This document shows positions 10,221 to 31,674 of a stretch of 64,000 nucleotides of DNA, piece by piece. How positions within the stretch are numbered: the stretch's first letter is position 1; each line of letters begins with the position of its first letter. Source of the DNA: Bifidobacterium lemurum (GTDB taxonomy: Bacteria; Actinomycetota; Actinomycetes; Actinomycetales; Bifidobacteriaceae); the NCBI RefSeq assembly GCF_014898175.1, contig NZ_CP062948.1:868001-932000 (forward strand). The letters run 5' to 3'. A program made the position numbers and the translations under genes. The notes under the pieces were generated by a model. It did not search any database, was not told the DNA's origin, and saw nothing but the letters and a program-made list of their open reading frames with translations.

Positions 10221-10251
10221 GATTCATATGAAGGAACAGGGTGGCAATCGT

Positions 10252-12129: not shown

Positions 12130-12396
12130 AGTTCACAGAGAAGACGAACAACAGCAGAGGACGTTCGTCTCAGGTTTAACGAATATAATTCCATAAAGAG
12201 AGTTTTAGACCGTGGATGTTTCTTGGAGATGCTGTCCTTATGCTGCAAGCTTCCGACTATCTCTACGTTGCAGCAGACTCATCCACCTCAGCACAATACC
12301 CCCTCATATAGGCGTCGTTGTCAATTCATTCATCTGACCGATTTACTACAGTAAAGAGCAGGAGAATCCAGCCGTGAAACGAAAGACAGGTAAGAC
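12130..12396. other. Intergenic region before the GtrB-like gene
   Basis: This 267-base gap holds no convincing reading frame. It is AT-rich toward its right end and must carry the promoter of the next gene. Near the end, ACAGGTAAGAC provides a weak ribosome site for the ATG at 12397. Confidence 0.5.
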
Positions 12397-13350
12397 ATGA
12401 CACTACTATCAGCAGTAGTTCCCTGCTATAACGAAGAAGAAAGCCTGCCTCTATTCCTGCAGTCATTCGATGAAATCACAACAGAGCTAATCAGCCAACA
12501 TCCAGATTTATCGTGCGAATTAATACTCATAGACGATGGTTCATCGGATAAAACTCTGGAGCTCATGCGGTCCGCAGCCCGACGTACAGAAACGCCTTAT
12601 TCACTCAAATATATATCTTTCTCACGAAATTTCGGGAAAGAAGCCGCTCTTTATGCCGGTCTGGAATACGCTTCCGGCGATTACGTGGCCACACTGGACG
12701 CTGACATGCAAGATCCGCCAAGTCTTCTTCCTGAGATGTTCAACATGCTCCAGTCCGAAGATATCGACAACGTGGCTACTCGCAGGCAGGACCGCAAAGG
12801 TGAACCACCAATTCGCTCTTTCTTCGCTAAACAGTTCTATAAAATCATCAACAAAATGTCCAACGCCGACATCGTCGATGGAGCACGCGACTTTCGTCTC
12901 ATGAAAAGGCCTATGGTCGACGCGATTCTTTCAATGAAGGAGTACAACCGCTTTTCTAAAGGCATTTTTGGCTGGGTCGGTTTCAAGACGAAATGGATTT
13001 CCTATGAGAACGTGGACAGAGCCGCAGGACAGACAAAGTGGAGTTTTCTCAAACTTTTCGTCTATGCTCTCGACGGAATCGTGGCGTTTTCCACCACTCC
13101 TCTAGTCATCGCTTCGATTGCAGGCCTGTTGTTTATGCTGCTGTCGGTGTTGTTCATCCTGCTCATCATCATCAGGACCCTTGCCTTTGGCGATCCTGTA
13201 GCAGGATGGCCATCGATGATATGCATCGTTCTGTTTATTGGAGGCCTCCAACTTCTCTGCATAGGTATTCTGGGCCAGTATCTGGCGAAAACTTATCTGG
13301 AAACCAAAGAACGCCCTCCTTACATCGTTCGTGAAACCAACGCCAAGTAA
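12397..13350 (+). CDS. GtrB-like polyprenyl-phosphate GT2 glycosyltransferase
   Basis: A 317-residue GT2 protein with SAVVPCYNEEESLPLF at the N-terminus, LILIDDGSSDKTL, ATLDADMQDPPSLLP (metal-binding DAD) near residue 103, DFRLMKRPMV, and FSKGIFGWVGFKT. Two C-terminal membrane segments follow (about residues 230-255 and 268-295). This is the plan of GtrB, ArnC and dolichyl-phosphate mannosyltransferases, which charge undecaprenyl phosphate with a sugar for use outside the membrane. It would supply a lipid-linked sugar for a GT-C enzyme such as the membrane protein encoded just upstream, which makes a two-gene modification unit plausible. Confidence 0.85.
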   Translation: MTLLSAVVPCYNEEESLPLFLQSFDEITTELISQHPDLSCELILIDDGSSDKTLELMRSAARRTETPYSLKYISFSRNFGKEAALYAGLEYASGDYVATLDADMQDPPSLLPEMFNMLQSEDIDNVATRRQDRKGEPPIRSFFAKQFYKIINKMSNADIVDGARDFRLMKRPMVDAILSMKEYNRFSKGIFGWVGFKTKWISYENVDRAAGQTKWSFLKLFVYALDGIVAFSTTPLVIASIAGLLFMLLSVLFILLIIIRTLAFGDPVAGWPSMICIVLFIGGLQLLCIGILGQYLAKTYLETKERPPYIVRETNAK

Positions 13351-13357
13351 ATCAATA

Positions 13358-13390
13358 AGAGGGGCTTCATCATTATGATGAAGCCCCTCT
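13358..13390. terminator. Perfect hairpin between convergent genes
   Basis: AGAGGGGCTTCATCAT at 13358-13373 and its exact reverse complement at 13375-13390 are separated by a single base, leaving a stem of about 14 pairs once a loop forms. It sits between the stop of the GtrB-like gene and the stop of the GH25 gene, so it should terminate both transcripts. Confidence 0.8.
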
Positions 13391-13412
13391 GCCTCAAACA
13401 AGTTGAGGCCAA

Positions 13413-16400: not shown

Positions 16401-16622
16401 GCTTACCGTGGAAGGCAATTCCTGCGTGGGATTGTCCGGAATGCTGTCCTCGTCGCTCAATTGCTGGTCGCCGATGGCCTGCACCTGTGAAGCGGATTGC
16501 GACGATGCCGAATCATCCAACCCAACGTCCGTGAGAGCGTACGCAGGAATCGCGCTCAACGACGCCACCAGCGCACCGGCGACAGTCATCGTGGCAACGC
16601 GTTTCCAAGTATGTGCAGTCAT
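13413..16622 (-). CDS. Secreted GH25 muramidase with twelve ricin-type repeats
   Basis: About 1069 residues from ATG 16622 (GAGGAG seven bases upstream). It has a signal peptide (TWKRVATMTVAGALVASLS to AYA), then a low-complexity acidic S/D/E/Q-rich linker to about residue 215. The GH25 lysozyme domain runs about 245-450, with VVDVSEWQG at its start and the DLEEW motif (catalytic D342 and E344 by my count). The rest is RICIN/beta-trefoil lectin sequence: twelve Q-x-W/F/Y units (AQQF, AQRW, AQKF, AQRY, AQHW, AQLW, AQVW, AQKW and so on), enough for four trefoils. It should cut peptidoglycan between MurNAc and GlcNAc while held on surface glycan. No LPxTG or membrane anchor is present. Confidence 0.92.
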   Translation of the reverse strand: MTAHTWKRVATMTVAGALVASLSAIPAYALTDVGLDDSASSQSASQVQAIGDQQLSDEDSIPDNPTQELPSTVSDDIPADATVVSPELAVSADGEVQNIETGETVTDPELVGTQSQQPDPLAKTDGESFIPVQVEEVRQKVGETDSDVDTAGEAGDSADDSATSGSPDESAGSSQPQQSEEDSDSVQDNADESTDAAVTPSALSTEGMVRLASLGGNEYGAYWGTYNSTPAFFEGSGTLFVQQAKGVVDVSEWQGTIDWQAAKNAGVEGAIIRISYGAGNGLDKQAKRNISECKRLGIPFGIYTYSYAYDNALAADEGDDIVSLLKQVGVSPSDLSYPVYYDLEEWTWTGHTPPTNPSVYDGIVSTWYSKLQAAGYKNLGVYSYTSYLKSALNSSSIHSKTTWVASYGSRTNFDYPTNSRGWQYTSGGTVAGISGRVDLNAFGNKTYQAEYDVRNLSTISIPDGTYYINSVLKDSSSVEIAGGGAANGVKTQLYQYNHTKAQQFRFTKQSDGSYVIQNVNSGKVLDVSNGSAGNGAVVQQYDANGTTAQRWFIRDSGAGYYVQSALGNWVLDISGAATTNGTAVALYAPNNSQAQKFVMASTDASVPTGKKVRVTSMAKSNMVMDISGGSVANGAKVQLYAWNETDAQRYTFTEVGNNVYRIVNVKSGKVLDAASGATGNGTAVQQYESNGTTAQHWHLMKVGSGYAFLNSKSGKAIDIPSGNASSGAKLQLYTSNMTKAQLWTVSEVTTMRERLDSLAASHKSDLPDGTYAIASMLKTSTRVEVAGASTANGGNVQLYAGNGTDAQVWKVTHDAKGYVTFTNAVSGKVMDIYNAGTSSGTNVHQYASNGSWAQKWIVVKNSNGSYTIRAATSESQVLDVSAGSTANGANIQIYADNGSNAQRWKITTTKTVRERLNSMAQSHKNDLPDGIYEFSSSVGKTMRLDVSGGSKNNGGNVQIYAANGTSAQRWRISHDAQGYVTLASVNSGKVLDVENGTSSSGTNVQQYAANGTWAQKWIAVKGATGDYVFYSALAENMVLDVSGGYARNGTNVQLYVSNGTAAQRWSLKK

Positions 16623-16718
16623 AACCGTTCTCCTCACATGGCATCGCCCATCCCGGCGAATCTCCACCATCAAACCTAACTCACGCGTCTTTCCTCACCG
16701 TCGCCACGCTTCCAAAAC

Positions 16719-16864: not shown

Positions 16865-17428
16865 CTAAATTCGACTCTCATCTATCGCTTCGAGCAATGG
16901 GAGCAGCGTCTCCGAAAAATGCGGAAGCGAACCATGCAGGAACCCGCACAATTCCTCTGGCGTTTGTGGACACCGGCGATACATCTGCATCATCTGATAA
17001 ATCACATTAGCCACGAACCCCGGACGAATATCCAGCACATCAAGCAGAAAATCGTCCGGATGCACGACTTCAATACCATAAGGGATACGTGATTCCTTCG
17101 GAAAATCTTTCAGATTAAAAGTCACCAAAGTATTAGCCGGGGAACGAACCGCCGCAGCGAGTACATGACGATCTCCCTCATCACATAACATCTTTGGTGT
17201 CAAATCCGCATAATCCTCAATTAACGCATCCGGAAAGGCCCGGTTCATCATCGACAAACGATACTGAATTTTCTCTTGCCCTATGACGGGAGATAGCACA
17301 CGCTGCAACTCCTCTTGCACTCCAACTGACCAGTAGGGTTTGAACAGTTTGGCTTCTGCCAGGCTGAGGATCATATCGCAAGTCACCTCGCCGTATAGAG
17401 CGCATGTATCGAAAAAGACCGGGAACAT
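16865..17428 (-). CDS. PIN-domain protein, probable VapC-type toxin
   Basis: A 187-residue protein starting FFDTCALYGE, with the first PIN aspartate at residue 7. Acidic residues recur in the middle (EDYADLTPKMLCDEGDRHVLAAA), and the C-terminal TFNLKDFP motif holds the last conserved aspartate, as in PIN_3-like ribonucleases that cleave tRNA or rRNA. The ATG lies two bases after the stop of the upstream HTH gene, whose last codons (AAGGGG) also serve as the ribosome site, so the two are coupled. Gene order antitoxin then toxin is the usual one. The activity is inferred from family and context. Confidence 0.82.
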   Translation of the reverse strand: MFPVFFDTCALYGEVTCDMILSLAEAKLFKPYWSVGVQEELQRVLSPVIGQEKIQYRLSMMNRAFPDALIEDYADLTPKMLCDEGDRHVLAAAVRSPANTLVTFNLKDFPKESRIPYGIEVVHPDDFLLDVLDIRPGFVANVIYQMMQMYRRCPQTPEELCGFLHGSLPHFSETLLPLLEAIDESRI

Positions 17429-17430
17429 GT

Positions 17431-17922
17431 CTACCCCTTAATAAGAGGATTGTGCGCAGTAAGGCTAGGGTCGGTGTCACGGTTCAGCTCTGCCATGCTC
17501 TGCATGAAGGACGCATGACGCTGATTGTCATATGTCTGCAAATCATCGAGACGGACCCTGCGATGCCTACCAACTTTGGTAAAGGGGATTTCCCCCGACT
17601 CAAGTAACTTCACAAAGGTAGGACGACTCATGCCCAGCATATCCGCCGCGTCCTGCGTAGTGAGCATCATATCGCAGGGAGCGACAAACACAGCCTTCCC
17701 CTGGGTCAACGCATTCGCGACCTGCAACAGCGCCTGCGCCAACTCCTTCGTGAGAGGCCTAGCGTCCTCCCCTTCAATCTTCAGAGTGGCGATAGGGAAG
17801 TCTTCCCGTTGAACCATCTCCTCGAATTTATCCAACGTTTCTTTGATATCAAGAACCTGACGCTTGCTGTCAGCTTGCGGATAGTATGTTGCCGAATTAC
17901 CGGATAACACTCGCCCAGACAT
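17431..17922 (-). CDS. Excisionase-family HTH protein, probable antitoxin
   Basis: I place the start at ATG 17922, which has GGAGG five bases upstream; ATG 17934 is in frame but its ribosome site is too close. The 163-residue protein has an N-terminal region with KEELAQALLQ-like helices, then a MerR/excisionase winged helix at about residues 92-140: LTTQDAADMLGMSRPTFVKL, ending in VGRHRRVRLDDL. It precedes and overlaps functionally with the PIN gene. In such pairs the HTH protein neutralises the toxin and represses its own promoter. A role as a phage excisionase is less likely, since no integrase is nearby. Confidence 0.8.
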   Translation of the reverse strand: MSGRVLSGNSATYYPQADSKRQVLDIKETLDKFEEMVQREDFPIATLKIEGEDARPLTKELAQALLQVANALTQGKAVFVAPCDMMLTTQDAADMLGMSRPTFVKLLESGEIPFTKVGRHRRVRLDDLQTYDNQRHASFMQSMAELNRDTDPSLTAHNPLIKG

Positions 17923-18459
17923 CTTTGCCTCCATGCCTCATCTTAATCGCTGCACTGTCCCTATATCCAATAATAACCCACGCACGCTATTATTCGAAAT
18001 ATTCGAAACAATATTCACGACTGCCTCTCGCACGCCCGGGAATCATTGGAATCATCTACGTTAAGGGAGTGGATTTGCCCGCCCACGGATATCGATCTGC
18101 GTTACGAGTAGCGCCGTTCAATCCCACGCCCGCATGTAAGCCTTGAAATTCGACCAAACATACCCAGCATACGCGCATACAGACACTACCTATAACGCAG
18201 ATCGACCTCCGCAATACCCAGAATCCACCACCCGTAATGTAGATAGCCGCGATCAAATACATCCTGAACAAACACAGCGCCACACAATACCGGCCCAGAC
18301 GAAGATTCTTGCCAATCATTGACAATTACGAGAAACCGGCAACTCGATAGCAATCGACGCCCCATCGGAAAGTTGCCCCAATCTCTTGACGGTTTATTTG
18401 ACGAGTAAACCGACGAACAATGCCCAGTTGCTTCAAAACCGCGGAATTCCAACGAAAAT
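17923..18459. other. Non-coding stretch upstream of the toxin/antitoxin operon
   Basis: Short open frames exist on both strands but none has coding character, a ribosome site or a recognisable product. Copy B of the 24-bp repeat lies inside. An imperfect palindrome GGTTTA-N9-TAAACC around 18394-18415 contains a TTTGACGAG core related to the tandem repeat that follows. The antitoxin promoter must be in the left part. Confidence 0.5.
18308..18331. repeat. 24-bp repeat, copy B
   Basis: This copy matches 16719-16742 with two differences. It lies about 390 bases upstream of the antitoxin gene. The sequence beyond the repeat differs from that beyond copy A. Confidence 0.65.
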
Positions 18460-19768: not shown

Positions 19769-20080
19769 CGCGCGAACTTCCTCTTATCGGTCGCATACGT
19801 CCGATTCGCGTCCGATACACGACCATCATTGTTGATGCACTCACCCATGTGTTATGGACGTTGCCGTTCGCCTGTGGCGAGTTTGGTGTGTCGGGGTGCC
19901 GAGACAGGCTTTGCTAAAACCTTTGATCCGCGAGTTTGGTGTGGGGAAATAGTCCCTTCGAACGAATCCGACACACCAAACTCACCATCGGTGTGAAATC
20001 AGGCGTTATCAGACACGCATTGGGACCATAACCGGCACGGCAGCGGACTGCAAAGGCGCGGCGGGGATGGTCGGAGAAAA
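19769..20080. other. Intergenic region with nested inverted repeats
   Basis: About 310 bases without a credible gene between the Schlafen-like gene and the terminator of the tRNA. It contains the repeat set annotated at 19879-19983 and nothing else I recognise. Confidence 0.5.
19879..19983. repeat. Two direct copies and one inverted copy of a GAGTTTGGTGTG element
   Basis: GAGTTTGGTGTGTCGG at 19879-19894 is perfectly complementary to CCGACACACCAAACTC at 19968-19983 (16 pairs). A second direct copy, GAGTTTGGTGTG at 19932-19943, can pair with the same right arm (12 pairs). The two hairpins are mutually exclusive, since they share one arm. The element lies in the leader side of the Schlafen-like gene. 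Confidence 0.75.
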
Positions 20081-20087
20081 AGAAAAA

Positions 20088-20113
20088 CCCTCCGGAGGTG
20101 GAATTCCGGAGGG
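20088..20113 (-). terminator. Rho-independent terminator of the tRNA-Ala gene
   Basis: CCCTCCGGA at 20088-20096 and TCCGGAGGG at 20105-20113 form a nine-pair stem. Read on the - strand the stem is followed by TTTTTCTTTTTC, a strong T-run. It lies eight bases downstream of the tRNA. Confidence 0.9.
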
Positions 20114-20120
20114 TCCTTCG

Positions 20121-20193
20121 TGGAGCTGATGGTAATCGAAACCACGACCTCTTCGATGCGAACGAAGCGCTCTACCAACTGAGCTACAGCCCC
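20121..20193 (-). tRNA. tRNA-Ala, anticodon CGC
   Basis: The - strand sequence begins GGGGCTGTAGCTCAGTTGG (acceptor and D arm). The anticodon stem is CTTCG/CGAAG around the loop TTCGCAT (anticodon CGC, reading GCG). GGTTTCGATTACC is the T arm and CAGCTCC with discriminator A closes it. The acceptor pairs GGGGCTG with CAGCTCC, one G-T wobble. CCA is not encoded (CGA follows). Length is 73 bases. Confidence 0.95.
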
Positions 20194-20330
20194 TTGGGTT
20201 GTTGCTTTGCACCGCAAGGCAACTCACGTTACTTTAATACGACCTCTGCCCAAACGCAATTCGCATGTCGCGCAATCGTGTCTCGCTCCTCGGCCCGCCA
20301 TCTCCCGCGCCTCTCATAACAGCCATCAGA

Positions 20331-20342
20331 CCCCCCCCCCCC
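20331..20342 (+). repeat. Run of twelve C upstream of the apbE remnant
   Basis: Twelve consecutive C bases. A possible -10 box TATAGA lies at 20356-20361 and the apbE-like frame begins at 20388, so the run would fall near the -35 position of that promoter. Runs this long are prone to slippage. Confidence 0.8.
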
Positions 20343-20387
20343 ACGCGTCAACCACTATAGAATCAATGCCCCGCTTTACCAGCGCGT

Positions 20388-21213
20388 ATGCTCTATGTGG
20401 CACCATTTCCGTATGCGTTGGACACGGGCATCATCGTGACGACCAGCCAGTCTGTTGACGATACCGCCCAACAGGAGCTGCGGCGATTCATCGAATCGTA
20501 TGAGGTAATCCTCTCCTGCTTCCGCAGAGATTCGATGATCGGACATATGCGGCATACCGCACATGACGGCTTGTTCCACTTCCGGATTAGCTCACCGGGC
20601 TTTTCTCGATATGACCGATTGTCTGTTCGAGGTCACATCCGGCGCGGTCGACCCCTGTGCCGGCGCTGCACTGGTCAGTTTGGGCCACGATGTCCCCCAT
20701 TCGAACATCGAGACAATTCCCGGAGCAATCGCGACAGTCCTTCGGCGGACACCATCTCCTGCGAGTCTCCCACATATTCCACCAAACACGACGACAACAC
20801 CGCATGACTGCACGGCCCGCATATCACACGGCGCATTCTGCGCCAGCGCTCCGAGCCGACGCCAGTGGACCGCGGCGAACGGACAGCAGACGCATCATCC
20901 CATCAACACGCTTGACGGCCAATCAGTCGACGAAATCGCCGCAACATGGGCCTGCATCGCCTCCGCCGATGAGGTATCCCGGATCCCGATGTATCTTCCG
21001 CCCTCGAAGAATCATTCCCGCCGCCATCGCCGACGAATTGACCACCGCGCTGTTCACCACACCGCCCGCTTCGCTGCGCCGCTCTTTCAACTTTGCATGC
21101 GTGCTGCTTTACTCCGACAGCACCGCAGCCGTCTCGGCGGCGACCTCGGTCCGTTCTTCACACACATCATCCGATTCGCAATCGAACGGCACACGCCCGG
21201 TCTTCACCAATAG
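20388..21213 (+). pseudogene. Decayed FAD:protein FMN transferase (ApbE family)
   Basis: Pieces of an ApbE protein can be read in all three + frames in order. Frame one from 20388 has PFPYALDTGIIVTTS, ESYEVILSCFRRDSM. The second from about 20563 has DMTDCLFEVTSGAVDPCAGA, VSLGHD, and the signature THHPINTLDGQSVDEIAATW. A third frame around 21000-21200 continues with ADELTTALFTTPP. ApbE normally attaches FMN to extracytoplasmic redox proteins. At least two frameshifts are needed, and the GTN-type FMN-handling segment is missing, so the gene is broken. The limits are approximate. The call rests on motif order by eye, not an alignment. Confidence 0.6.
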
Positions 21214-21444
21214 GTGTGCACGCCGCGAGCGTCACCGTCAGAATCAGCCCGGCTATGCAGGCTATGATGCACATGACTCAATCCGGAATGTGACGCAGCA
21301 TGACGAGTCGGGCCCCTTCACGCGCCCAGCGGTCAGAACAGCCCTCTTGGCAGTCGCTTTACCACTGACACGCTACTGCCCGCTGGGCGTAACCGCCAAG
21401 CGCATTGGTAGCGAGGTACCGGCATCATGCGAAAACAATGCCCA
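21214..21444. other. Non-coding stretch between apbE remnant and operon terminator
   Basis: Only overlapping open frames of no coding character. It may hold the decayed end of the apbE gene or of a following redox gene, but I recognise no motif. Confidence 0.4.
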
Positions 21445-21486
21445 TCCCACTGCTTGTTGCCTAACATTGGCCAATAAGCAGTGGGA
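21445..21486 (-). terminator. Hairpin ending the leftward Liv/URO-D operon
   Basis: TCCCACTGCTT at 21445-21455 and AAGCAGTGGGA at 21476-21486 form an 11-pair stem; the inner part can pair further (TTGCC with GGCCAA). On the - strand it is followed by ATGGGCATTGTTTTCG with a short T-run. It lies 29 bases past the SDR stop. Confidence 0.6.
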
Positions 21487-21514
21487 GGGAACATATACGG
21501 CATCCCCAATAGCA

Positions 21515-22222
21515 TCACACATTGAATTTTGGAGAGACTTCCACCCTGGGTCGAAGATCCATATTGCTGATATGCACATCATCCGTGGCCTCGACCACAA
21601 ATTGGATAGCTCTGGCCACAGTAACCGGATCGATGTAATGTTCCGGTTCGAACGCCAGGCCCATCTCGGAATTGATAGTGCGCAGCATGCCTGTATTGAT
21701 CTGCCCTGGATAGATGGCGCTCACGCGGATACCGTTCGGCGACTCTTCCATGCGAAGCGTGTTCGCATAGCCGCGAAGCGCATGCTTGGATGCGGCATAC
21801 ACCGCATGCAAGGGCACGCCCCGTTCCCCCGCGCCGGAGTTAATGAACACTACCGTGCCCTTCGCCTTACGTAGGTTGTCAATCAAAGCCGATGTGAGCA
21901 TGGCTGGACCGATAACATTGGTGGACAGCATCACCTCCCACATTGTTTCATCAGAGTCGACAGCCGGAGCCGTGTGCGATACCGCCGCAGCGTGAATCAA
22001 CGCATCCACAGGACGTCCGGCTACGATATCCGCCAGCTCCTTGATCGAAGACCGGTTCCGCACATCGCAGTTGACGGCAGTCACTCCAAGATCTTCCAAT
22101 GCCTGCAAATCCTGGTGATTTCGCGCTGTGGCAATGACCTCCCAATCATTCTTAAGCAATCGTGCCGTGGCACGTCCCACTCCGCCACCGGCACCCGTAA
22201 CAACTGCAAGTCTGCCTTCCAT
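21515..22222 (-). CDS. Short-chain dehydrogenase/reductase
   Basis: A 235-residue classical SDR with VVTGAGGGVGRATA (T-G-x3-G-x-G) at the N-terminus, a CDVRN segment, the HAAAVSH equivalent of NNAG, catalytic serine in FINSGAG, and the YAASK motif. It reduces or oxidises a small carbonyl or hydroxyl compound with NAD(P). It is the last gene of the leftward operon, 52 bases after the fused ATPase gene. It may act on the keto product of the C-S lyase step encoded upstream; that is inference from context. Confidence 0.85.
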   Translation of the reverse strand: MEGRLAVVTGAGGGVGRATARLLKNDWEVIATARNHQDLQALEDLGVTAVNCDVRNRSSIKELADIVAGRPVDALIHAAAVSHTAPAVDSDETMWEVMLSTNVIGPAMLTSALIDNLRKAKGTVVFINSGAGERGVPLHAVYAASKHALRGYANTLRMEESPNGIRVSAIYPGQINTGMLRTINSEMGLAFEPEHYIDPVTVARAIQFVVEATDDVHISNMDLRPRVEVSPKFNV

Positions 22223-22274
22223 ACCATCCTCCTCATTCGTGTCGCTTTCATATCTCGCTTGTCTTGGGCGAATC

Positions 22275-23966
22275 TCATCGAGCTTTGCCTAAATAAGCCT
22301 CCTGAACTCCGGAATCGGACGATAGCTTTTTCGCGGAGCCCTCAAGCACGATTTCACCATTCAGCAGCACAAACCCGTAATCCGCAATGGTCAACGCAAG
22401 ATCAGCCTGTTGCTCAATCAGCAATACGGAAATTCGCAACTCATCGCGCAACGATGAAATCGCGCCAAGCACCTCATCCACCAATTTGGGAGACAATCCC
22501 ATAGTTGGCTCATCCATACAAATCAACTTGGGCTTACTCATCAGGGCACGGCCGAATGCCAGCATTTGCTGTTCGCCGCCAGACAGAGTGCCGGCCATCT
22601 GGTTGCGCCGCTCCTTCAAACGCGGAAAACGGTCGAAGATATCAACCATGTCCTCATCGACCGCCTTGCCACGCTTGCGGATATATGCGCCGGATAGCAG
22701 GTTCTCCGTAACCGTCATTTCCGGAAAGATGCGTCGGGCCTCCGGCACGGAAGCAATCCCCCTTCGCACGCGGTTCTCAGTGCTGACTCCCTGAAGGTCC
22801 TTTCCCTGATAAATGATTTTGCCATCCTTGGGATTCAACAGACCCATGATGGTACGCATGGTGGTGGATTTGCCCACGGCATTACCGCCAAGCAGTGAGA
22901 CAATCTGCCCCTCACGCACATTCAGAGACACGTCACGCAACGCCTGCACAGAACCATAAAACACATCGGCATGCTGTATATCCAGAATATACGGAGCATC
23001 CGCGGAGATCGGCATTTTGTGAGCCGATGAATCCTCGGGTTCTTCAACGCGAGCGACTTCCCCTCCTTCAAGCGTTTGGTCGCTCTTGTCACCGCCTAAA
23101 TAAGCGTTGATGACTCTGGGATCATTACGCACCACGGATGGGATGCCCTCGGAAATGATGCGCCCGTTGTCCATCACAATGATCCAGTCGGAAAGCGTCA
23201 TTACAAAATCCATCTTGTGCTCCACCAACAGCATGGTGTTGCCCTCAGCCTTCAGCTTCAGCAACAGCTCCATGACCTCAGCGGTCTCCGTTTGATTCAT
23301 GCCAGCAGTGGGTTCGTCAAGACACAGCAGATGCGGTTCGGAGATCATCGCGCGACCGATTTCCGTTCGACGTTTGTTCGCATACGACAGCGAATACGTC
23401 ATGCGTCCACGCACATCAGCCAGATGATCGCCGAATGACTTCGCCTGGGCATCCACTTGTTCCTTGACGGATTGCATTTCGGCACGGGTCTTGGGCCCAG
23501 GCACAAGGTTCAATCCCAATTCGCCAATCAAATTGGCCCATTTGACCAGCGGATAGTCCTGCAACCCTCTCAGCGGGCGACCGGCCGCCATTGTCTTATG
23601 CAGTCCCATTTCCAAATTGTCGTCCACCGTCATGGAACCGAATACACGACCATTCTGAAATGTTCTGGCAATGCCCGCATCGGAAATCTCCCGCTGTTTC
23701 ATATGTTCCAGATGCTTGCCCTCGAAAACGATCTGTCCCGAATCCGGATTGAACAGTCCAGAAATCATGTTGATGGTAGTGGATTTTCCCGAACCATTGG
23801 GACCGATGATGGCCACGACCTCTCCTTTGTGGATGGTGAACGAGGTGTTGCTCACCGCGTGTACGCCAGAAAAGGACTTGTCGAGGTTCTTGACTTCCAG
23901 AACCACCGGACGATCGTCGCCGTGTGCCAAAGACTGTTCCATGGATGTTGTTGTCTCGATGGTCAT
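22275..23966 (-). CDS. Fused LivG-LivF type ABC transporter ATPase
   Basis: A 563-residue protein with two complete ABC domains. The first has Walker A GPNGSGKST at 55-63, signature-like LSYANKRRTEIGRAM and LLCLDEPTAGM (LivG type). The second has GGNAVGKST, LSGGEQQMLAFGRAL and LICMDEPTMGLSP (LivF type). In most bacteria the two are separate genes. The Walker A of the second domain is GGNAVGKS, with N-A in place of N-G. The ATG is two bases after the permease stop and is preceded by AAGGAG. It energises the import system whose binding protein and permease are encoded just upstream. Confidence 0.92.
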   Translation of the reverse strand: MTIETTTSMEQSLAHGDDRPVVLEVKNLDKSFSGVHAVSNTSFTIHKGEVVAIIGPNGSGKSTTINMISGLFNPDSGQIVFEGKHLEHMKQREISDAGIARTFQNGRVFGSMTVDDNLEMGLHKTMAAGRPLRGLQDYPLVKWANLIGELGLNLVPGPKTRAEMQSVKEQVDAQAKSFGDHLADVRGRMTYSLSYANKRRTEIGRAMISEPHLLCLDEPTAGMNQTETAEVMELLLKLKAEGNTMLLVEHKMDFVMTLSDWIIVMDNGRIISEGIPSVVRNDPRVINAYLGGDKSDQTLEGGEVARVEEPEDSSAHKMPISADAPYILDIQHADVFYGSVQALRDVSLNVREGQIVSLLGGNAVGKSTTMRTIMGLLNPKDGKIIYQGKDLQGVSTENRVRRGIASVPEARRIFPEMTVTENLLSGAYIRKRGKAVDEDMVDIFDRFPRLKERRNQMAGTLSGGEQQMLAFGRALMSKPKLICMDEPTMGLSPKLVDEVLGAISSLRDELRISVLLIEQQADLALTIADYGFVLLNGEIVLEGSAKKLSSDSGVQEAYLGKAR

Positions 23967-23968
23967 GA

Positions 23969-25780
23969 CTACTCCTTCTTAGCAAACAGGCCCTGCGGGC
24001 GGAAAATGATGATGAGGATCAACAGTAAGCCGTAAACGATGATTCGGCCGGATGACATGAAACGCAGCAGTTCCGGGGCTCCTACAAGCACAATCGATCC
24101 GATGATGGCACCCATTGGAGAGCTCAGTCCACCAAGTACCGCAATAGTGAGCACCAACGATGACATCGAGAAGGGGAACATTGACGGATCGATATAGGTG
24201 TACTGGTGAGCCATCAACGCGCCTGCGATGCCTGCGAAGAATGCCGCGATGGCATAGGCCAAGGCCTTATAGGCGGAGGCGCGAACGCCAATGGACTCCG
24301 CAGCCACAGGATCGTTGCCAATGGATTCGATGGTCTTACCCAAATGAGAGTTTCGAATACGCGTAATGATCATCAGTTCGATCAGCAGGAACGCCAATAC
24401 CATCACGTATTGGAACTGCGGGGTGAACAGCGTGAAACCGAAGATCTTCGGGAAAGGAATGCCCGTGATGCCCAGCGAACCCTTGGTGATCGGCTCAGCG
24501 ATACGGATGAGGGCAACGGTGACCGCGCCCACGCCGATGGTGCCGATTGCGATGTAATGGCCGGAAAGCTTCCATATCGGGAAGGTGATGATTCCCGATA
24601 TAATCGCAGCAACCAGACCGCCGCACACGACACCAAGTAAAAACGGCACATGGAACTGCCCCACCAGAATCGCCGAAGTGTATGCGCCCAAGGCGATAGG
24701 ACCGGCCTGTCCCAAGGCAACCTGGCCTGCGGAGCCCGAAACCAAGGTCAGTCCCATGGCAGCCATGGCATAGATCATGATCTGGATGCCAACCGAAGAG
24801 AAATAATCCGAGGAAAGAAACGACGCCGCTACCGCCGCAACGATCAGTATCGGCGCAAGCCACTTGGGAACACGGTACGGTCGCGCACCGCCGGAGAATG
24901 AACCCGCCATCGGTTCATGCAGCACCTGCTTGCCGCCGAACAAACCGTTCGGGCAAATAATCAGGATGATCAGCAACGCGCCGTAGGTAATCAAATCATG
25001 AGCGCCATCACCAAAGATGAACACGCCGACCGACTCGACGATACCAAGTGCGAATCCGCCGACCACAGCGCCCGGCATCGAGCCAAGCCCGCCAATGGTA
25101 GCCGCAATAAACGCCGTCATACCGACCGAGGAACCGGTGTTCGGGCTGACATTCGAATTGAACATGCCCACGAACACGCCTGCCACACCGGCAAGGGACG
25201 AAGCAATCACAAACGACATGTTCTGAATTCGTTTAACCGGAATGCCCATCTGCCGAGCCGCTTCCGTGTCCTGCGAAGTGGCGCGGATCGCCTGTCCCAT
25301 CTTGCCGTGCTTGAGAAAGAACCACATGCCCACCATGATGATGACGGTCAGGATGAGCATAACGATGTCCGATGTGCCGAACCGCACACCAAGCAGCTCG
25401 ATGTTATGCGAAGGCAGCAGCTCGGGAAATGTTCGAGTCGGGGTATCGAAAATCATCTGTGAAACATTGTCGAGAATCATGCCCACGCCGATGGTCGCCA
25501 GCAAAGCGGCCACAGTAGGCCTTCCCGTCAACGGGGAAACCACCAGCACGTTAAGCAACAGCCCCAGCAAACCGGTGATGGCCATAACCAAGATGAGCGT
25601 AGGAACAATCGGCAGTCCGAGTACCGATCCCAGCCACCAGCCGCTCATCATGCCGATGCCGAAAATTGATGCATGAGCAAAATTGGCAACATTACTCACG
25701 CCGAAAATAAGTGACATGCCCAAGGCAACGATGGCATATGCGTTGCCATGCATGAATCCGGTAATCAAAGTATCTATCAC
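23969..25780 (-). CDS. Fused LivH-LivM type ABC transporter permease
   Basis: A 603-residue membrane protein. The first half (about residues 1-290) is a LivH-type permease (MIDTLITGFMHGNAYAIVALG, AFIAATIGGLGSMPGA). The second half (about 310-603) is a LivM-type permease (GLTLVSGSAGQVALGQAG, GIAGALMAHQYTYIDPSMF). Both halves carry the family's conserved loops. The fusion parallels the fused ATPase, so the whole importer is three polypeptides rather than five. The start is GTG 25780 with GGAGGGAAG upstream. Substrate is likely an amino acid or related zwitterion; the Liv family is broad. Confidence 0.92.
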   Translation of the reverse strand: MIDTLITGFMHGNAYAIVALGMSLIFGVSNVANFAHASIFGIGMMSGWWLGSVLGLPIVPTLILVMAITGLLGLLLNVLVVSPLTGRPTVAALLATIGVGMILDNVSQMIFDTPTRTFPELLPSHNIELLGVRFGTSDIVMLILTVIIMVGMWFFLKHGKMGQAIRATSQDTEAARQMGIPVKRIQNMSFVIASSLAGVAGVFVGMFNSNVSPNTGSSVGMTAFIAATIGGLGSMPGAVVGGFALGIVESVGVFIFGDGAHDLITYGALLIILIICPNGLFGGKQVLHEPMAGSFSGGARPYRVPKWLAPILIVAAVAASFLSSDYFSSVGIQIMIYAMAAMGLTLVSGSAGQVALGQAGPIALGAYTSAILVGQFHVPFLLGVVCGGLVAAIISGIITFPIWKLSGHYIAIGTIGVGAVTVALIRIAEPITKGSLGITGIPFPKIFGFTLFTPQFQYVMVLAFLLIELMIITRIRNSHLGKTIESIGNDPVAAESIGVRASAYKALAYAIAAFFAGIAGALMAHQYTYIDPSMFPFSMSSLVLTIAVLGGLSSPMGAIIGSIVLVGAPELLRFMSSGRIIVYGLLLILIIIFRPQGLFAKKE

Positions 25781-25880
25781 TGCTGCTTCCCTCCTTGTCG
25801 GCTTGCCGACCAGTACGAACCGCTTGCTGCAACCGCCTGACGAAGACGGATTCCCGGCTCCGCCAAGCAGATTGCATGAA

Positions 25881-27038
25881 TTACTTCATGATTTGGAACT
25901 TCCCGTTCTCGAGCTTGAGCTTGAGGAAATTGGTGTTCTTCATACGACGGGTTTCCTGATTGAAGGAGAATGTGGTGTTCGTGCCCACATAACAGGGAAA
26001 ATCCTCAACCGTTTCCAGCGCTTCCTGTACGCCTTCCCTGGTGGCACTCGTCTTGTTCATGCCATAGGCGAGGTCGATGACCGCAGCATAGGCGGTCTCA
26101 TTGAATTCGCCCGGTTCCGAATTGTACTTAGCACGGAAATCCTTAACGAACTGTTGAGCATTGGGATTGGTGGAATCAGCGGTGAAAGGTGCCATCAGCA
26201 TAGTGCCTTCGCCGTTCTCACCCGCGGTGGAGATGAACTCATTGGTGATCTGGCCACCATAGAACGGTCCCGTATAGCCCAACTTGTCACGAAGCGTATT
26301 GATGACCAATGCGCCATCAGGACCGTATCCCACATGCACAATGGCATCCGGATCAGCATCGCGCGCAGGAATCAGAATCGGAGAGAGATCCGTGGAGTCA
26401 GCCAGGAACGATGATTCATAAACGATATCGAGCCCCTCGGCGAGCGCCTCTTTTTTGAATGCCGCATATGCCGCCTTGCCCCAATCGTTCTCAATATAAA
26501 CGACGGAAATTTTCTTGGCGTGCTCGGCGACCATATCGGCGACCTGCGACTGGAAATCGTCTTGGCTGTATTGCGGAGTCCACACATGATCGCCGGTGGA
26601 GGTGAAGTCGGCAGCGGAATTATTAAACCCATAATGTACCAAACCGGCTTGCTGGAACGTCGGCGACGCGGCCATGGAAGCACCGGACGAATAATCACCC
26701 ACAACCGCCACCACCGATGAGTCAGAGGCTATCTTGGGAGCCACTGAAGCAGACTGTTTCGGATCGGACTGGGTGTCGTAATATTTAAGCTCAATCTTCT
26801 TGCCCTGCACGCCGCCATCCGAATTGACCTGTTCGGCGCCAAGGTCAAGCCCTTGCTTGAACATTTTGCCATATTCGGCGTATTGTCCGGTTTCCGGATA
26901 CAGCACGGCAATGGCAACCGTATCGGAAGATCCGGAAGCGGTTCCTCCGCCAAAAGTGGAATTCTGGGCACAGCCAGCCAATGAGGCCGCCATCGATGCA
27001 GTGATAAACGCAGTAACCGCTTTCTTATAGATTCTCAT
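25881..27038 (-). CDS. Liv-type periplasmic-binding-protein-like lipoprotein (peripla_BP_6)
   Basis: A 385-residue extracellular solute-binding protein. The start is ATG 27038 with GAGGAAAAGG upstream. It has a lipoprotein signal peptide ending in SLAGC (cysteine near residue 22), and the LivJ/peripla_BP_6 fold: VAIAVLYPETGQYAEYG, ELKYYDTQSDPKQS, VVAVVGDYSSGASMAASP, YIENDWGKAAY. The SSGAS block is where amino-acid binders hold the substrate's carboxylate and amine. It feeds the fused permease and ATPase encoded downstream. Ligand unknown. Confidence 0.92.
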   Translation of the reverse strand: MRIYKKAVTAFITASMAASLAGCAQNSTFGGGTASGSSDTVAIAVLYPETGQYAEYGKMFKQGLDLGAEQVNSDGGVQGKKIELKYYDTQSDPKQSASVAPKIASDSSVVAVVGDYSSGASMAASPTFQQAGLVHYGFNNSAADFTSTGDHVWTPQYSQDDFQSQVADMVAEHAKKISVVYIENDWGKAAYAAFKKEALAEGLDIVYESSFLADSTDLSPILIPARDADPDAIVHVGYGPDGALVINTLRDKLGYTGPFYGGQITNEFISTAGENGEGTMLMAPFTADSTNPNAQQFVKDFRAKYNSEPGEFNETAYAAVIDLAYGMNKTSATREGVQEALETVEDFPCYVGTNTTFSFNQETRRMKNTNFLKLKLENGKFQIMK

Positions 27039-27101
27039 GACCTTTTCCTCTCTATTGCGCATCCGCCTAGGGAAGCGCGCTTGTCGTCATACCAAACGAA
27101 T

Positions 27102-28139
27102 TCACTTCCTCGCCGAGCGCAACAATGCAAGCGATTCATCGGAAGCCGGGGTGGGGATGGTGCAGCTCGGAGCCAGAAAGAACGGCTTACCGTCGCATTC
27201 CTTCAACGTTTCGTTCAATTGCTTCTTGACCAGCGAAACGTCGCCATCGGATGCGAATAGGGTGAAATTCACACCGCCAATGGGGGTGACGCCCAAATCC
27301 TCGGTAATAGCAGGGTTATCACGCATGAACTGGTCCCAGTGAATGGCACTGATCGGATAATCGGAAAACCACTCCGGATGAGAATCCATACGGCAAGTAT
27401 GGAATACCTTCACTTTGTCCTCCGCCGCAGCCAGCACCTGCATGTCAAAGGGACGAGAGAACTCGTCGAATTCGGCTTTGGTGAAATAGTTATTGCTGGC
27501 CGTTCCGGTCACTGCGAAAAAAATACCATCCAGTCCGGCACCACCCTGTTCACGCGGCGTAACCAATGCCTTGACATAATCCACATACGTGTCGGTGATG
27601 TTCTGCAACGCTTGCTTGGCGGCCTCAGGCTGATCGAGGATCAACTCCTTGATGCCGAAATCAGTGGTCGACCCATAAATGGGATCGCCCTTGTATAGGG
27701 ACATGCCAGCGCATTGCATCAGCACGGATAACGGTGAGAACAGCGTCATCACAACAATGCGATCCTGAAAATGCTCGCCAATAATCGTCGCGCCTTTGAG
27801 ATGCTCTTGCAGTACGGGAGAATCTTCGATTGCGATTCTGCCAATCTTTCTCACATCGGTTGGCTTCTCGATGATGGCGGAAAGCTGTTTCTGGATTGGA
27901 TCATGCGGACCATACTCATCGGGATCGTATGTAGATCCCCAAATCTCGGAGTGATAGGTGGCACGAGGATTGATCTTGACCCAATCCCAATCCCACTTTT
28001 CAACAAAATCGATGGTGCGCTGGGCAAAATCCTCCGGATCGTTTTCATGACCATTGAAATGCTGCCATGCGGCAGTAAGGAACGGCACAGTGGTTTTGCC
28101 TGCGACGAGGTCCATAAATTCGGATTTGCGATTAGTCAT
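27102..28139 (-). CDS. URO-D/MtaA-family protein (uroporphyrinogen decarboxylase fold)
   Basis: A 345-residue protein of the URO-D superfamily, which also includes corrinoid/CoM methyltransferases (MtaA, CmuA) and the MetE C-terminal domain. Features are VPFLTAAWQHFNGHE, DWDWVKINPRATYHSEIWG, and VKVFHTCRMDSHPEWFSDYPISAIHWD, where FHTC is the position of the metal/thiol-binding histidine-cysteine pair in the methyltransferase branch. The N-terminal arginine motif of true HemE is not seen. It has AAGGAG before ATG 28139. Since it lies between a C-S lyase and an amino-acid-type importer, I infer methyl transfer from or to an S-methylated compound rather than haem synthesis. Confidence 0.8.
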   Translation of the reverse strand: MTNRKSEFMDLVAGKTTVPFLTAAWQHFNGHENDPEDFAQRTIDFVEKWDWDWVKINPRATYHSEIWGSTYDPDEYGPHDPIQKQLSAIIEKPTDVRKIGRIAIEDSPVLQEHLKGATIIGEHFQDRIVVMTLFSPLSVLMQCAGMSLYKGDPIYGSTTDFGIKELILDQPEAAKQALQNITDTYVDYVKALVTPREQGGAGLDGIFFAVTGTASNNYFTKAEFDEFSRPFDMQVLAAAEDKVKVFHTCRMDSHPEWFSDYPISAIHWDQFMRDNPAITEDLGVTPIGGVNFTLFASDGDVSLVKKQLNETLKECDGKPFFLAPSCTIPTPASDESLALLRSARK

Positions 28140-28207
28140 TATATGCTCCTTAATGGGTTTGGATTGTTGAAAAGATGGAGTGAAAAGATAAAGATCATGA
28201 CAGCGGT

Positions 28208-29407
28208 CTACAGAAGCCCGTCATCATGCAATGCTCGGTACATGCGATCAAAGCATTCCTGAAGCAGCGGATATGGCATGGCGAAGTTCATGCGCACGCA
28301 GCCTGCACCGACTTTGCCGCATTCCTTACCGTCTGTAAGGGCCACTTTTGCTTTCTCCAGAAAATATTGGGAAGGATCATTGATGCCAAGCGGTTTGAAA
28401 TCCAGCCAGGCGATGTAGGTGCCCTGAGGACGCACATAACCAACTTTGCTGAATCGCCCATGCATTTCGGAATCAAGCAGGTCAAAATTGTGTTTGACGT
28501 ATTTGAGCGCTTCCTGGAACCAGGGCTCGCCCTTGGTATAGGCCGCGGTAGTGGCGATGGCGCCGATGGTGGCAGTCTGGTGTTCGCTCCATTCAGCGCG
28601 ATCCATCCATAACTTCAGATCATCCGGATTAGTGAGGATCACCTGAGCACATTTGGTACCGGGGATATTGAATGATTTCGATGCCGAGGTGGAGGTAATG
28701 GCCTGCATGACAGTCGTTTCATTGATCGAAGCGAATGGCACATGCCGATAGCCATCGAACACGAATGGCGCATGGATCTCATCGGAAAAGACTCGCACAC
28801 CGTATTTCGCAGCAAGCTCGGAAATCTTGAGTTCCTCCTCCAAGGTGAGCACTTTCCCGATTGGGTTATGGGGGTTGCATAGCACGAAAGCATGGCATCC
28901 GTTCCGGAATGCCTCCTCAATGGCATCAAAGTCAAACAACCAGCCGTCGGAATGCTCAATCATCGGAATTTCGATTAGATCCACGTTGTACAGTCGCGGC
29001 ACACTTAGGAAAGGCATATAGGCCGGAGTTGGCACAATCACGGAATTGCCGGCACCAACGAATTCGCGTAGAAAGATTTCATAAGCCTCAAGCACATCGG
29101 GCACTGGGCGGATATATGCGGGATCCACATCCCATCCGTAATGGTTCTTCTGCCATGCAGCACACGCTTCAGCCACGCGATGCTTCCATGGGTCGGGAAT
29201 GTAGCCAAGCTTGCAGTCATCCGCAGCCTCTTCGATGGCTTCCTGAATTACGGGAGCCAAACCGTAGTCCATCTCCGCGATGAAAGCCCCGATACAACCA
29301 GGGTAGCGGGTCCACTTATCGCTGCCGATCTGCGCAAGATCTGCGGCGGTTTCATGATCAATAACGTCGGCGCTGAAACCAGTAGCCGTGAGAGTTTGTG
29401 TTTCCAT
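28208..29407 (-). CDS. MalY/PatB-family PLP C-S lyase/aminotransferase
   Basis: A 399-residue fold type I PLP enzyme. It has RYPGCIGAFIAEMDYGLAP at the N-terminus, CNPHNPIGKV, VFSDEIHAPFVF (PLP-binding aspartate), and TSASKSFNIPGTKCAQVI with the Schiff-base lysine, as in MalY, PatB and cystathionine beta-lyases. These enzymes split C-S bonds of cystathionine, cysteine conjugates or similar, releasing a thiol, pyruvate and ammonia. It is the first gene of the leftward operon, 68 bases before the URO-D-like gene, and is next to a LysR gene. Its substrate is probably what the Liv-type importer brings in. Confidence 0.88.
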   Translation of the reverse strand: METQTLTATGFSADVIDHETAADLAQIGSDKWTRYPGCIGAFIAEMDYGLAPVIQEAIEEAADDCKLGYIPDPWKHRVAEACAAWQKNHYGWDVDPAYIRPVPDVLEAYEIFLREFVGAGNSVIVPTPAYMPFLSVPRLYNVDLIEIPMIEHSDGWLFDFDAIEEAFRNGCHAFVLCNPHNPIGKVLTLEEELKISELAAKYGVRVFSDEIHAPFVFDGYRHVPFASINETTVMQAITSTSASKSFNIPGTKCAQVILTNPDDLKLWMDRAEWSEHQTATIGAIATTAAYTKGEPWFQEALKYVKHNFDLLDSEMHGRFSKVGYVRPQGTYIAWLDFKPLGINDPSQYFLEKAKVALTDGKECGKVGAGCVRMNFAMPYPLLQECFDRMYRALHDDGLL

Positions 29408-29471
29408 GCCTTCATGATGAAGGAAAAAGACACATCAGATAGGCGTTTTCCTCGCCTCATTTCTTTGACCC

Positions 29472-29496
29472 AACCGGAAGATAGTTATATCCGGTT
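29472..29496. promoter_or_regulatory. Candidate LysR operator upstream of the C-S lyase operon
   Basis: A perfect 7-bp inverted repeat, AACCGGA, an 11-base AT-rich spacer, then TCCGGTT. It lies 65-90 bases before the start of the MalY-type gene, in the short gap between it and the LysR gene. A spacer of 11 is common in LysR sites. Confidence 0.55.
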
Positions 29497-29538
29497 ACGT
29501 GGGGGAAACATGGAAACGATTCCGAAATACGATGTTTT

Positions 29539-30465
29539 CTATTCCAAGTACTTTTGCGCAGCCCGTTTGATTTCATCCTTCACTTTGAGCAAAGCAGGAC
29601 GATGATCCCCTTTGCGAGTCACAAACAGCACCTCGCGGCAGGCATTCTCATCCTTGATCGGGCACGCCATCAAATCGTTCTCTAAATGCGCTCTTACGGA
29701 TATCCTCGGCACAATGGAAACACCCATGCCCATCTCCACCAAGTTCTGCGTAGCCCAATAGTCGTCAGTGGAATGGGTGATGTCCGGGGAAAATCCCGCG
29801 ACCCGTGCCAAAGAAATAAGATTCGCCTGACACGTTTCACAACCCGCAATCCAATGCTCGTCTTTTGCGACCGAAAGACTGATCGGCTCATGCACCGCCG
29901 CATACCGCTTCGCAATGACGCTGTTCTGATTGACCAACAGCAGCAGCGGATCGGAGCCAAAATACTCCGTTTCAAGATCCTCATTCATTTTGACGAATTC
30001 CGGAATGCTATGGTACTGAAATGTCACCGCGCAGTCCGCCAATCCTTGGGACAACGCGTCCACCGCCTCAGGCGGCTCCATCTGCATCAGGCCCACACGA
30101 ACCTCCGATGACCAGCTCATATGCACCAAAGCCCTGGCAGCGAATGACGAGCAGATGGAAGGCGGCGCAATCAAACGGATATGCGCCGAATGATGCCGAC
30201 CATACGCATCGATATCCCGCTGAGCCTGAGTAAGACGATTGTCGATCAGTTGTCCGTGCTTGGACAGAATCAAGCCCACAGGAGTCAACTCCACACCATG
30301 CGAGGTACGTCTTACCAACGGGATTTTCAGCTCATCCTCACATTTTTTGATTTGCTGACTGATGGCGGGCTGCGACCACCCGGTTTCACGTGCCACGGCG
30401 GAGAACGAGCCCAAACGTTCAATGTTCCAAAGCGTCACCATAACCTGAGGGTTCAAACGTTCCAT
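29539..30465 (-). CDS. LysR-family transcriptional regulator
   Basis: About 308 residues from ATG 30465, with GGAGG eight bases upstream (GTG 30474 is in frame). An N-terminal winged helix-turn-helix (FSAVARETGWSQPAISQQIKK) is followed by a linker helix and a LysR substrate-binding domain (IRLIAPPSICSSFAARALVH onward). It is transcribed in the same direction as, and directly upstream of, the C-S lyase operon, so it is the probable activator; the ligand would be the imported compound or a product. Confidence 0.9.
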   Translation of the reverse strand: MERLNPQVMVTLWNIERLGSFSAVARETGWSQPAISQQIKKCEDELKIPLVRRTSHGVELTPVGLILSKHGQLIDNRLTQAQRDIDAYGRHHSAHIRLIAPPSICSSFAARALVHMSWSSEVRVGLMQMEPPEAVDALSQGLADCAVTFQYHSIPEFVKMNEDLETEYFGSDPLLLLVNQNSVIAKRYAAVHEPISLSVAKDEHWIAGCETCQANLISLARVAGFSPDITHSTDDYWATQNLVEMGMGVSIVPRISVRAHLENDLMACPIKDENACREVLFVTRKGDHRPALLKVKDEIKRAAQKYLE

Positions 30466-30849
30466 GTATGGCACCTCCTGTTCACGCAGAATGCTGCATT
30501 TTCATCGGAACCGAGTCTGACACAGGTATATTGCGTTGACCCTCTGCTATTCCCTTCAGTCGTCATCATCATGAAACACAACCGACATCAACCAACACAT
30601 GGGACAGCACAAACCGATACAGTCAAGACATCGCCGATTATTTGGGGACAGGCAGCAGACTCCGCCGGACACGATCACCACGACCAGCACGGTACAACTT
30701 CAAATGAGGGAATCCCCCGCCGTTCACGCTTCAATCCGATATATGACTGGAACGCGAACGACGGGGGATTATCATATGGCCTGATTGGCGGTATCACCAG
30801 TCAGACTCCACTGACCGTAATTGCCGTCAACGCAGCACCAACGAGGAGA
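30466..30849. other. Intergenic region between DedA gene and LysR gene
   Basis: About 385 bases without a supported gene. An open + strand frame across it has no coding character. The 11-base arms CCAACGAGGAG and CTCCTCGTTGG around 30838-30866 overlap the end of the DedA gene and could be its terminator, but no T-run follows. The LysR promoter must lie in the left part. Confidence 0.5.
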
Positions 30850-31527
30850 TCACTCCTCGTTGGCGGCAGGCTTCTTCTTGCCGAACTTGGCCTTCAGCAG
30901 GCCGATGATCGTGGGCAGCAGCGAAACCGCCAGAATCAGGATAATCACCAATTCGAAATGATCCTGCACGGCGGGAATGCCGCCGAAGAAGTATCCAAGC
31001 AGTGTGAACAGCGTGGACCACACGATGCCACCCAGCACGGAGAACGGCGTGAAACGGCTCCATCGCATGCCTGAAATGCCGGAGATAAACGGCATGAACG
31101 TACGGATGAACGGGAAGAAGCGGCCCAGGAACACCGCGAGCGGACCCCACTTCTCGATCATGCCTTCGGTTTTGGCGATGCGCTCGGGGGTCATGGCCTT
31201 AACCTTGCCGGACTGGATGATGCGGCGCCCGAAGAAGTGGCCGATGAAGTAGTTGCACTGGTCGCCGATGATCGGCGCGAGCCACACCACCGGCAGCAGC
31301 GCCATCAGCGGCAGCGCGGCCTTGCCCGTCTCGTCCGGAGCGGCGAACACGCCGGCCGCGAACAGCAGGGAGTCACCGGGCAGGAACGGGAAGAACACCA
31401 CACCCGTTTCGATGAAGATAATCAGGAAAATGAAGCCAAGCGTGGGGGCCACGCCCATGGCGATCCAGCCGGCGATGGCGGCGCGCGGATCCTTGAGCAG
31501 TTCAACGATAAAATTCACAAATCCCAT
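30850..31527 (-). CDS. DedA/VTT-domain membrane protein
   Basis: A 225-residue membrane protein of the DedA family: ETGVVFFPFLPGDSLLFAAG (conserved E and FLPGD), GDQCNYFIGHFFGRR, FLGRFFPFIRTFMPFISGISG (the conserved F-x-R-x-x-P-x-x-R motif), and a C-terminal LLGYFFGGIP followed by a last hydrophobic segment. DedA proteins act in undecaprenyl-phosphate or phospholipid flipping. GAGGATTAG precedes the ATG. It stands as a single gene. Confidence 0.93.
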   Translation of the reverse strand: MGFVNFIVELLKDPRAAIAGWIAMGVAPTLGFIFLIIFIETGVVFFPFLPGDSLLFAAGVFAAPDETGKAALPLMALLPVVWLAPIIGDQCNYFIGHFFGRRIIQSGKVKAMTPERIAKTEGMIEKWGPLAVFLGRFFPFIRTFMPFISGISGMRWSRFTPFSVLGGIVWSTLFTLLGYFFGGIPAVQDHFELVIILILAVSLLPTIIGLLKAKFGKKKPAANEE

Positions 31528-31674
31528 GAGTTTCTAATCCTCTAAGGTACAGGTCGTATTTCCAAACCTCCCCCACCCTACCAGCAGCCTACGCTAAGCC
31601 GACAAACCTATATAAACCTGCACAATTACAGCGTCAAACCGCATCGACATGGCCAAGTAAGCGCCGTCACCAAA

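Follow-up and report, generated by a model that had tools for sequence, protein, structure and literature searches.

Among described systems, those closest to the locus examined here are the soluble coenzyme M methyltransferases MtaA, MtbA and MtsA, proteins of the uroporphyrinogen decarboxylase (URO-D) fold that carry what we take to be a characteristic H-x-C...C motif; the type I mlp clusters; the core methionine synthases MesA-MesD; the PatB/MalY/AecD C-S lyases; and importers of the Liv/HAAT kind. In type I mlp clusters, MtaA-like proteins lie beside PatB, MetC, MetB and MetY (legend of Fig. 7 in Kountz and Balskus, PMC10418091), and an excerpt of PMC7857596 presents MesA-MesD as remotely related to the catalytic domain of MetE (PF01717). 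Here we describe a leftward operon of seven genes in a 64,000-nucleotide stretch of Bifidobacterium lemurum DNA (the window; G000:C1:868001-932000, within a single-contig genome of 2.97 Mb), which encodes a LysR-type regulator, a PatB-type lyase, a URO-D-fold protein, a Liv-type importer and a short-chain dehydrogenase/reductase (SDR).

The URO-D protein of the window resembles MtaA, MtbA and MtsA in fold, in its H-x-C...C triad and in length, and the top structural match of its model is Methanosarcina mazei MtaA (4ay7/4ay8); it differs in being only 18% identical in the structural alignment, in lacking a recognised corrinoid protein and in belonging to a non-methanogen. As in type I mlp clusters, an MtaA-like protein stands near sulphur and methionine genes, but the window has a single URO-D gene together with a Liv-type importer, and no recognised corrinoid partner. 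The outcome proposed below, folate-independent methylation of homocysteine, is shared with MesA-MesD as presented in the excerpt of PMC7857596, whereas the window protein matches PF01208 only in Pfam, not PF01717, and has no significant profile match to MetE. The lyase belongs to the same pyridoxal phosphate (PLP) lyase family as PatB, MalY and AecD but scores below the TIGR04350 cut-off; all components of the importer are homologous to those of Liv/HAAT systems, but its permeases and ATPases are fused and its binding pocket differs from that of LivJ/LivK. A preliminary description of this stretch held that no pathway with this gene set had been described. Among the matches listed from the open-access literature (subscription papers were not covered), neither the operon nor a corrinoid-free bifidobacterial URO-D methyltransferase is described, although the Fig. 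7 legend of PMC10418091 already pairs MtaA-like proteins with PatB, MetC and MetY.

We propose, with a probability of roughly 0.35, that the operon is a mobile, LysR-linked cassette through which an imported donor methylates zinc-bound homocysteine directly, the SDR handling the remainder. The importer would bring in a methylated or S-substituted compound, for example a sulphonium such as S-methylmethionine, and the URO-D protein would keep a thiol, most likely homocysteine, on its zinc as the thiolate. This homocysteine may be supplied from cystathionine by the PatB-type lyase, or in other species by cystathionine/O-acetylhomoserine enzymes; the URO-D protein would then alkylate the thiol directly from the imported donor, yielding methionine without methyl-folate or B12, and the remaining carbon skeleton would pass to the SDR. 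The more general claim, that this is an organosulphur cassette with a zinc-thiol alkyltransferase, is in our judgement highly probable. A new route to methionine has a real but unproven chance, and in its most specific form, a folate- and B12-independent route built on a URO-D-family zinc enzyme in an exchangeable bifidobacterial cassette with interchangeable importers, it is rather unlikely.

A recurrent operon in Bifidobacterium

The seven genes lie on the minus strand with short intergenic gaps, in the transcription order LysR-PatB-UROD-SBP-LivHM-LivGF-SDR (SBP, substrate-binding protein); six had been located correctly in the preliminary description, and the upstream regulator is added here. 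The block opens with the LysR-type gene (29539..30474; Pfam LysR_substrate and HTH_1), which also precedes PatB in B. tibiigranuli (locus L002, 75%) and B. aquikefiri (L003, 62%). Next comes the PLP-dependent C-S lyase of the PatB/MalY family (28208..29407; cystathionine beta-lyase type), with PDB matches to 3fdb (the best, 251.9 bits), PatB 6qp3 (206.0) and MalY 1d2f (167.0); its top NCBIfam model, TIGR04350, is matched at 281.4 bits, below the curated cut-off of 340. The URO-D-fold, MtaA-like protein, a candidate thiol methyltransferase (27102..28139), is followed by the Liv-type binding protein (25881..27062; Peripla_BP_6, 176.1 bits), a fused LivH-LivM permease of 603 aa (23969..25780; two BPD_transp_2 stretches), a fused LivG-LivF ATPase of 563 aa (22275..23966; two ABC_tran stretches and BCA_ABC_TP_C) and, last, the SDR (21515..22222; NF006073, 225.2 bits, cut-off 218). 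The importer is complete, as had been claimed, in that a binding protein, two permease domains and two ATPase domains are encoded together, each pair as one fused gene; the same fusions (window 22275-25780) occur in bifidobacterial relatives. At one relative, L029, gene calling splits the permease into two pieces that overlap.

At E 1e-3, 21 of 112 Bifidobacterium genomes match the URO-D protein: 18 strongly (E 5e-91 or better), one with a fragment, and two weakly with a URO-D of another kind. The main count comprises 20 URO-D loci, the window included, from 19 genomes (G004 twice); the 7.8-kb L035 is included. The full gene order is repeated in B. tibiigranuli and B. aquikefiri, and UROD, SBP, LivHM and LivGF occur together at 14 of the 20 loci, so the gene set is more than a chance association. 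Gene families at neighbour loci were checked on the genes of L002; of the 13 other loci with Liv genes, 10 have an SDR relative within the examined stretch. Among 396 genomes drawn across the phylum, only the window's own passes 1e-30 with the URO-D protein. B. tibiigranuli and B. aquikefiri, the named carriers of the full set, presumably originate from water kefir and not from the gut.

Two loci have unusual structures. At L033, two pairs of URO-D and binding-protein genes flank one LivHM-LivGF, with ProC-like and glyoxalase-like genes between. L040, in genome G007, is a decayed copy of the module and is excluded from the 20: it keeps LivGF and both sulphur genes among intact-looking neighbours, with small URO-D and permease remnants.

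The URO-D protein, its zinc triad and B12

The URO-D protein is the sole PF01208 match of its genome (48.9 bits, cut-off 23.9). The zinc triad (H247, C249, C326) is invariant across the 23 rows of alignment A1, which omits the URO-D of L039 (doubtful C-terminus) and of L035 (gene not called), and the AlphaFold2 model that matches MtaA has a mean pLDDT of 95.1. Fold match and triad agree with the proposed placement in the methyltransferase branch, and the proteins of the three full-set species (window, B. tibiigranuli and B. aquikefiri) form one clade with support 100/99. Identity with HemE was rejected on sequence grounds: the genome has one URO-D, and the signature that we take to mark the HemE N-terminus, P-x-W-x-M-R-Q-A-G-R, is absent; by eye, the corresponding stretch is TAAWQHFNGHE in the window, and relatives read much alike. 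Against the PDB, the sequence found three RecA chains only, with no passing stretch and judged spurious, and the profile found no match. The definition of an Mlp in PMC10418091 asks for an identity above 25% with a characterised soluble coenzyme M methyltransferase (SCMT); among SCMTs, the comparison made here covers 4ay7/4ay8 (18%). The protein is MtaA-like, seemingly without the usual corrinoid partner.

That partner bears on another explanation, a corrinoid-dependent methyltransferase like those of type I mlp clusters, working with scavenged cobalamin or with a corrinoid protein of another type. The nearest solved relative uses methylcobalamin, sulphur genes are found in the known mlp clusters of the PMC10418091 legend, and 44 of the 112 genomes have weak matches to the B12-binding domain PF02310, at most 25.3 bits against a cut-off of 32.1, which also count against the reading that we prefer. 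Over the cut-off, however, PF02310 was found in none of the 112 genomes, where the control was positive in 12 of 14 well-known genomes, and in the window's genome no match appeared even at E 1e-3; family scans of eight window proteins gave no corrinoid or Ram family, although no search was aimed at Ram. Corrinoid dependence is very improbable in our view. The lack of a B12-binding domain over the cut-off sets the system apart from type I mlp clusters, and membership of these was rejected because the corrinoid partner is missing (one URO-D, no B12-binding match in the window's genome).

A missing methionine synthase can be discarded as an explanation of the URO-D gene, since PF01717 occurs in 108 of the 112 genomes, among them that of the window, which has a 785-residue frame of MetE size (the scan covered PF01717, not the N-terminal domain of MetE). 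With such a protein present, a URO-D route to methionine would be additional; MesD/MesX too is often an additional route alongside others, according to the excerpt of PMC7857596. A second PF01717 match in the window's genome (G000:C1:2664177-2665187) falls in a 382-residue frame that is a possible core methionine synthase, and similar short frames are listed for other bifidobacteria. A BHMT-type enzyme (PF02574) was also rejected, being present in five of the 112 genomes (once as a fragment) and in no URO-D carrier.

The imported compound, sulphur genes and the lyase module

The binding protein looks lipoprotein-like by eye, with an invariant Cys31. The solved structures nearest to it are annotated as binders of Leu/Ile/Val or of other amino acids, or are unnamed receptors, and it retains Tyr18, Ser79 and Tyr202 of E. 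coli LivJ, which would suit an uptake operon for plain branched-chain or other amino acids, with loosely associated enzymes and a URO-D protein unrelated to methyl transfer. It is, however, only 22% identical to LivJ. All 13 relatives have Ser in place of Thr102, Asn in place of Ala101, Trp in place of Tyr150 and Tyr in place of Leu77, and 12 of the 13 have Asn in place of Ala100; Glu226 aligns to a gap, with Gln271 close by. We take Ser79, Thr102 and Glu226 of LivJ to be amino-acid contacts, Glu226 pairing with the ligand ammonium. The pocket residues of the window protein are invariant in all 12 rows of alignment A2 (without L029 and the second L033 copy), and because these differences from LivJ are invariant among relatives, they suggest one conserved ligand other than a plain branched-chain amino acid. 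The pocket differs from that of E. coli LivJ/LivK at conserved positions; the additional aromatic residues, suggestive only, would go well with a sulphonium or some other cation. Together with the sulphur-gene neighbourhood described next, this makes plain amino-acid uptake quite improbable.

A gene of the cystathionine/O-acetylhomoserine family lies near 14 of the 20 URO-D loci, as against 2 of 19 PatB controls, and the supposed link to sulphur is upheld; the Fisher p of 2.4e-4 overstates the case, since the loci are related by descent. The queries were taken from L002, itself among the 20, with thresholds of 60% (cystathionine type), 45% (O-acetylhomoserine type) and 150 bits. The controls (L056-L074) represent 19 of 27 other genomes with a close PatB, of which G041, G058 and G097 carry URO-D elsewhere; L059 holds a 61-residue sulphur-gene fragment below the bit threshold, and L075, without PatB, is not a control. 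Stretches measured 11.3-19.5 kb at controls and 7.8-21 kb, mostly 19.5, at URO-D loci. According to an excerpt of PMC11540073, B. longum draws on cysteine or sulphide for its homocysteine, using enzymes of the cystathionine/O-acetylhomoserine kinds.

Importers vary with the locus. Close relatives of the binding protein (at least 59% identity) occur in 13 of the 112 genomes, all 13 being strong URO-D carriers, and the next best reaches 31%. The six non-Liv loci include two with SBP_bac_5 of the oligopeptide type (L027, L036), one with SBP_bac_3 of the polar-amino-acid type (L026) and one with SBP_bac_6/8 (L038); L041 has two permease genes resembling those of L026, and at L030 no importer was recognised.

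The lyase forms a module of its own. A close PatB (about 65-80%) occurs in the 27 other genomes; in 22 of these the window-type URO-D has no strong match. LysR adjoins PatB at 18 of 19 examined PatB loci. By its gene content, the window operon is two modules joined, LysR-PatB and UROD-Liv-SDR, as are those of B. tibiigranuli and B. aquikefiri. A URO-D of a second kind, 57-67% identical to the copy at L027 and with H-x-C...C kept in the three inspected, stands ahead of an oligopeptide importer and M20 at L027:370-1350, follows LysR-PatB at L067:8428-11992, and occurs also at L075:5565-6581. At L073:1111-12122, LysR-PatB, an importer of the oligopeptide type, an M20 peptidase and this second URO-D form a run on a single strand; the importer's binding protein and permeases were judged by eye, its ATPase from a weak similarity to LivGF. 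As the same lyase and regulator here accompany another importer and another URO-D, lyase, importer and URO-D would seem to act together. Of the 20 window-type loci, 17 are without PatB, but L067 and L073, with the second kind of URO-D, speak for the pairing of lyase and URO-D that had been put forward.

The architecture of L073 and L067 strengthens a different explanation, sulphur scavenging, and lowered our estimate for direct methylation from 0.4 to the value given above. An imported S-substituted cysteine, or its N-acyl or peptide form, would be cleaved by PatB to a thiol and pyruvate; the URO-D protein would act on the zinc-bound thiol, and the sulphur would pass to homocysteine or cysteine. 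PatB lies within the operon, and M20 amidohydrolases like that of L002 (TIGR01891-type) accompany 5 of the 20 URO-D loci (L002, L025, L029, L032 and L033). The excerpt of PMC11540073 states that B. longum DJO10A requires cysteine for growth and that bifidobacteria make no direct use of inorganic sulphur, so a scavenging route would pay. Most window-type loci nevertheless lack PatB, LysR-PatB occurs without either kind of URO-D at 17 of 19 PatB loci, and the role of a zinc methyltransferase on a released thiol is not evident. We consider scavenging a close rival of direct methylation, if somewhat unlikely in itself.

Direct methylation of homocysteine has to be weighed against further observations, all of which tell against it. 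HemE structures follow about 1.4 Z behind MtaA in the structural search, profile comparison of the URO-D protein with MetE found no significant similarity, and another methionine synthase is not needed where a MetE-size PF01717 protein is present. Six loci hold no cystathionine/O-acetylhomoserine gene in their stretch, those of the window and B. aquikefiri included. The M20 peptidases and the oligopeptide importer that neighbour URO-D genes are easier to reconcile with conjugates than with a methyl donor in free form.

Apparent mobility and wider distribution

A sister genome (G031), whose DedA is 99% identical to that of the window, has an empty site (L076) at which window positions 20043-20263 and 30863-31642 align side by side, at 93.7% and 91.8%, with 130 bases between. 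Since the flanks meet there beside the same tRNA-Ala (CGC; 20120..20193, minus strand), the intervening 10.6 kb (20264..30862) were gained here or lost in G031, gain being the simpler reading. Five genomes were compared in this way; only L076 aligns on both sides, L077-L080 lacking the left flank and being uninformative. Besides the seven genes, the segment has about 1.25 kb before them and 0.4 kb after, neither with a recognised gene, and no direct repeats of at least 10 bases were found in the segment ends compared. In B. tibiigranuli, the flanks (L002 38-7475, interrupted at 3653-4652, and 17616-18116) share 86-92% DNA identity with L033, whereas the block from LysR to SDR (7676-16659) is 72-74% identical to the window and only 66-69%, in pieces, to L033; whole-block replacement by transfer fits these identities best. 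The seven genes seem to travel together, apparently from species to species.

The roughly 1.25 kb between tRNA and SDR (20264-21514) contain overlapping plus-strand open reading frames and are perhaps decayed sequence that arrived with the block; three frames in 20388-21874 have no Pfam match. Between LysR and PatB lies a perfect inverted repeat, AACCGGA-N11-TCCGGTT (29472..29496), a weak candidate for the regulator's site because it was not found at the equivalent place in L002 and L003; a conserved LysR site was rejected for the same reason. Only tRNAs exceed the Rfam gathering score, with no riboswitch or T-box, in the window and 6 of the 19 other URO-D loci (L024-L029). Farther off, at 16865-17934, are neighbouring PIN-domain and helix-turn-helix genes resembling a toxin-antitoxin pair.

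Outside the phylum, 7 of 72,556 plasmid records match the URO-D protein, all below 26% identity, and five of these were examined in detail. On an Aerococcus tenax plasmid (L045:5629-9008), a URO-D gene with H-x-H...C directly follows a MetQ-ATPase-permease methionine importer; a Nicoliella plasmid has two URO-D genes ahead of an amino-acid importer, and a Microvirga plasmid has one near LysR and a tripartite transporter. On these three plasmids the label "uroporphyrinogen decarboxylase family" is probably misleading. No importer near the URO-D gene is listed in the gene tables of the Polaromonas and L. mucosae plasmids.

With no direct use of inorganic sulphur by bifidobacteria, and with a cysteine requirement in B. 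longum DJO10A, the way in which these bacteria acquire organic sulphur matters, and a transferable cassette for import and methyl or sulphur transfer would, if the proposal is true, explain part of it. It would also represent a corrinoid-free use of a methanogenesis-type enzyme.

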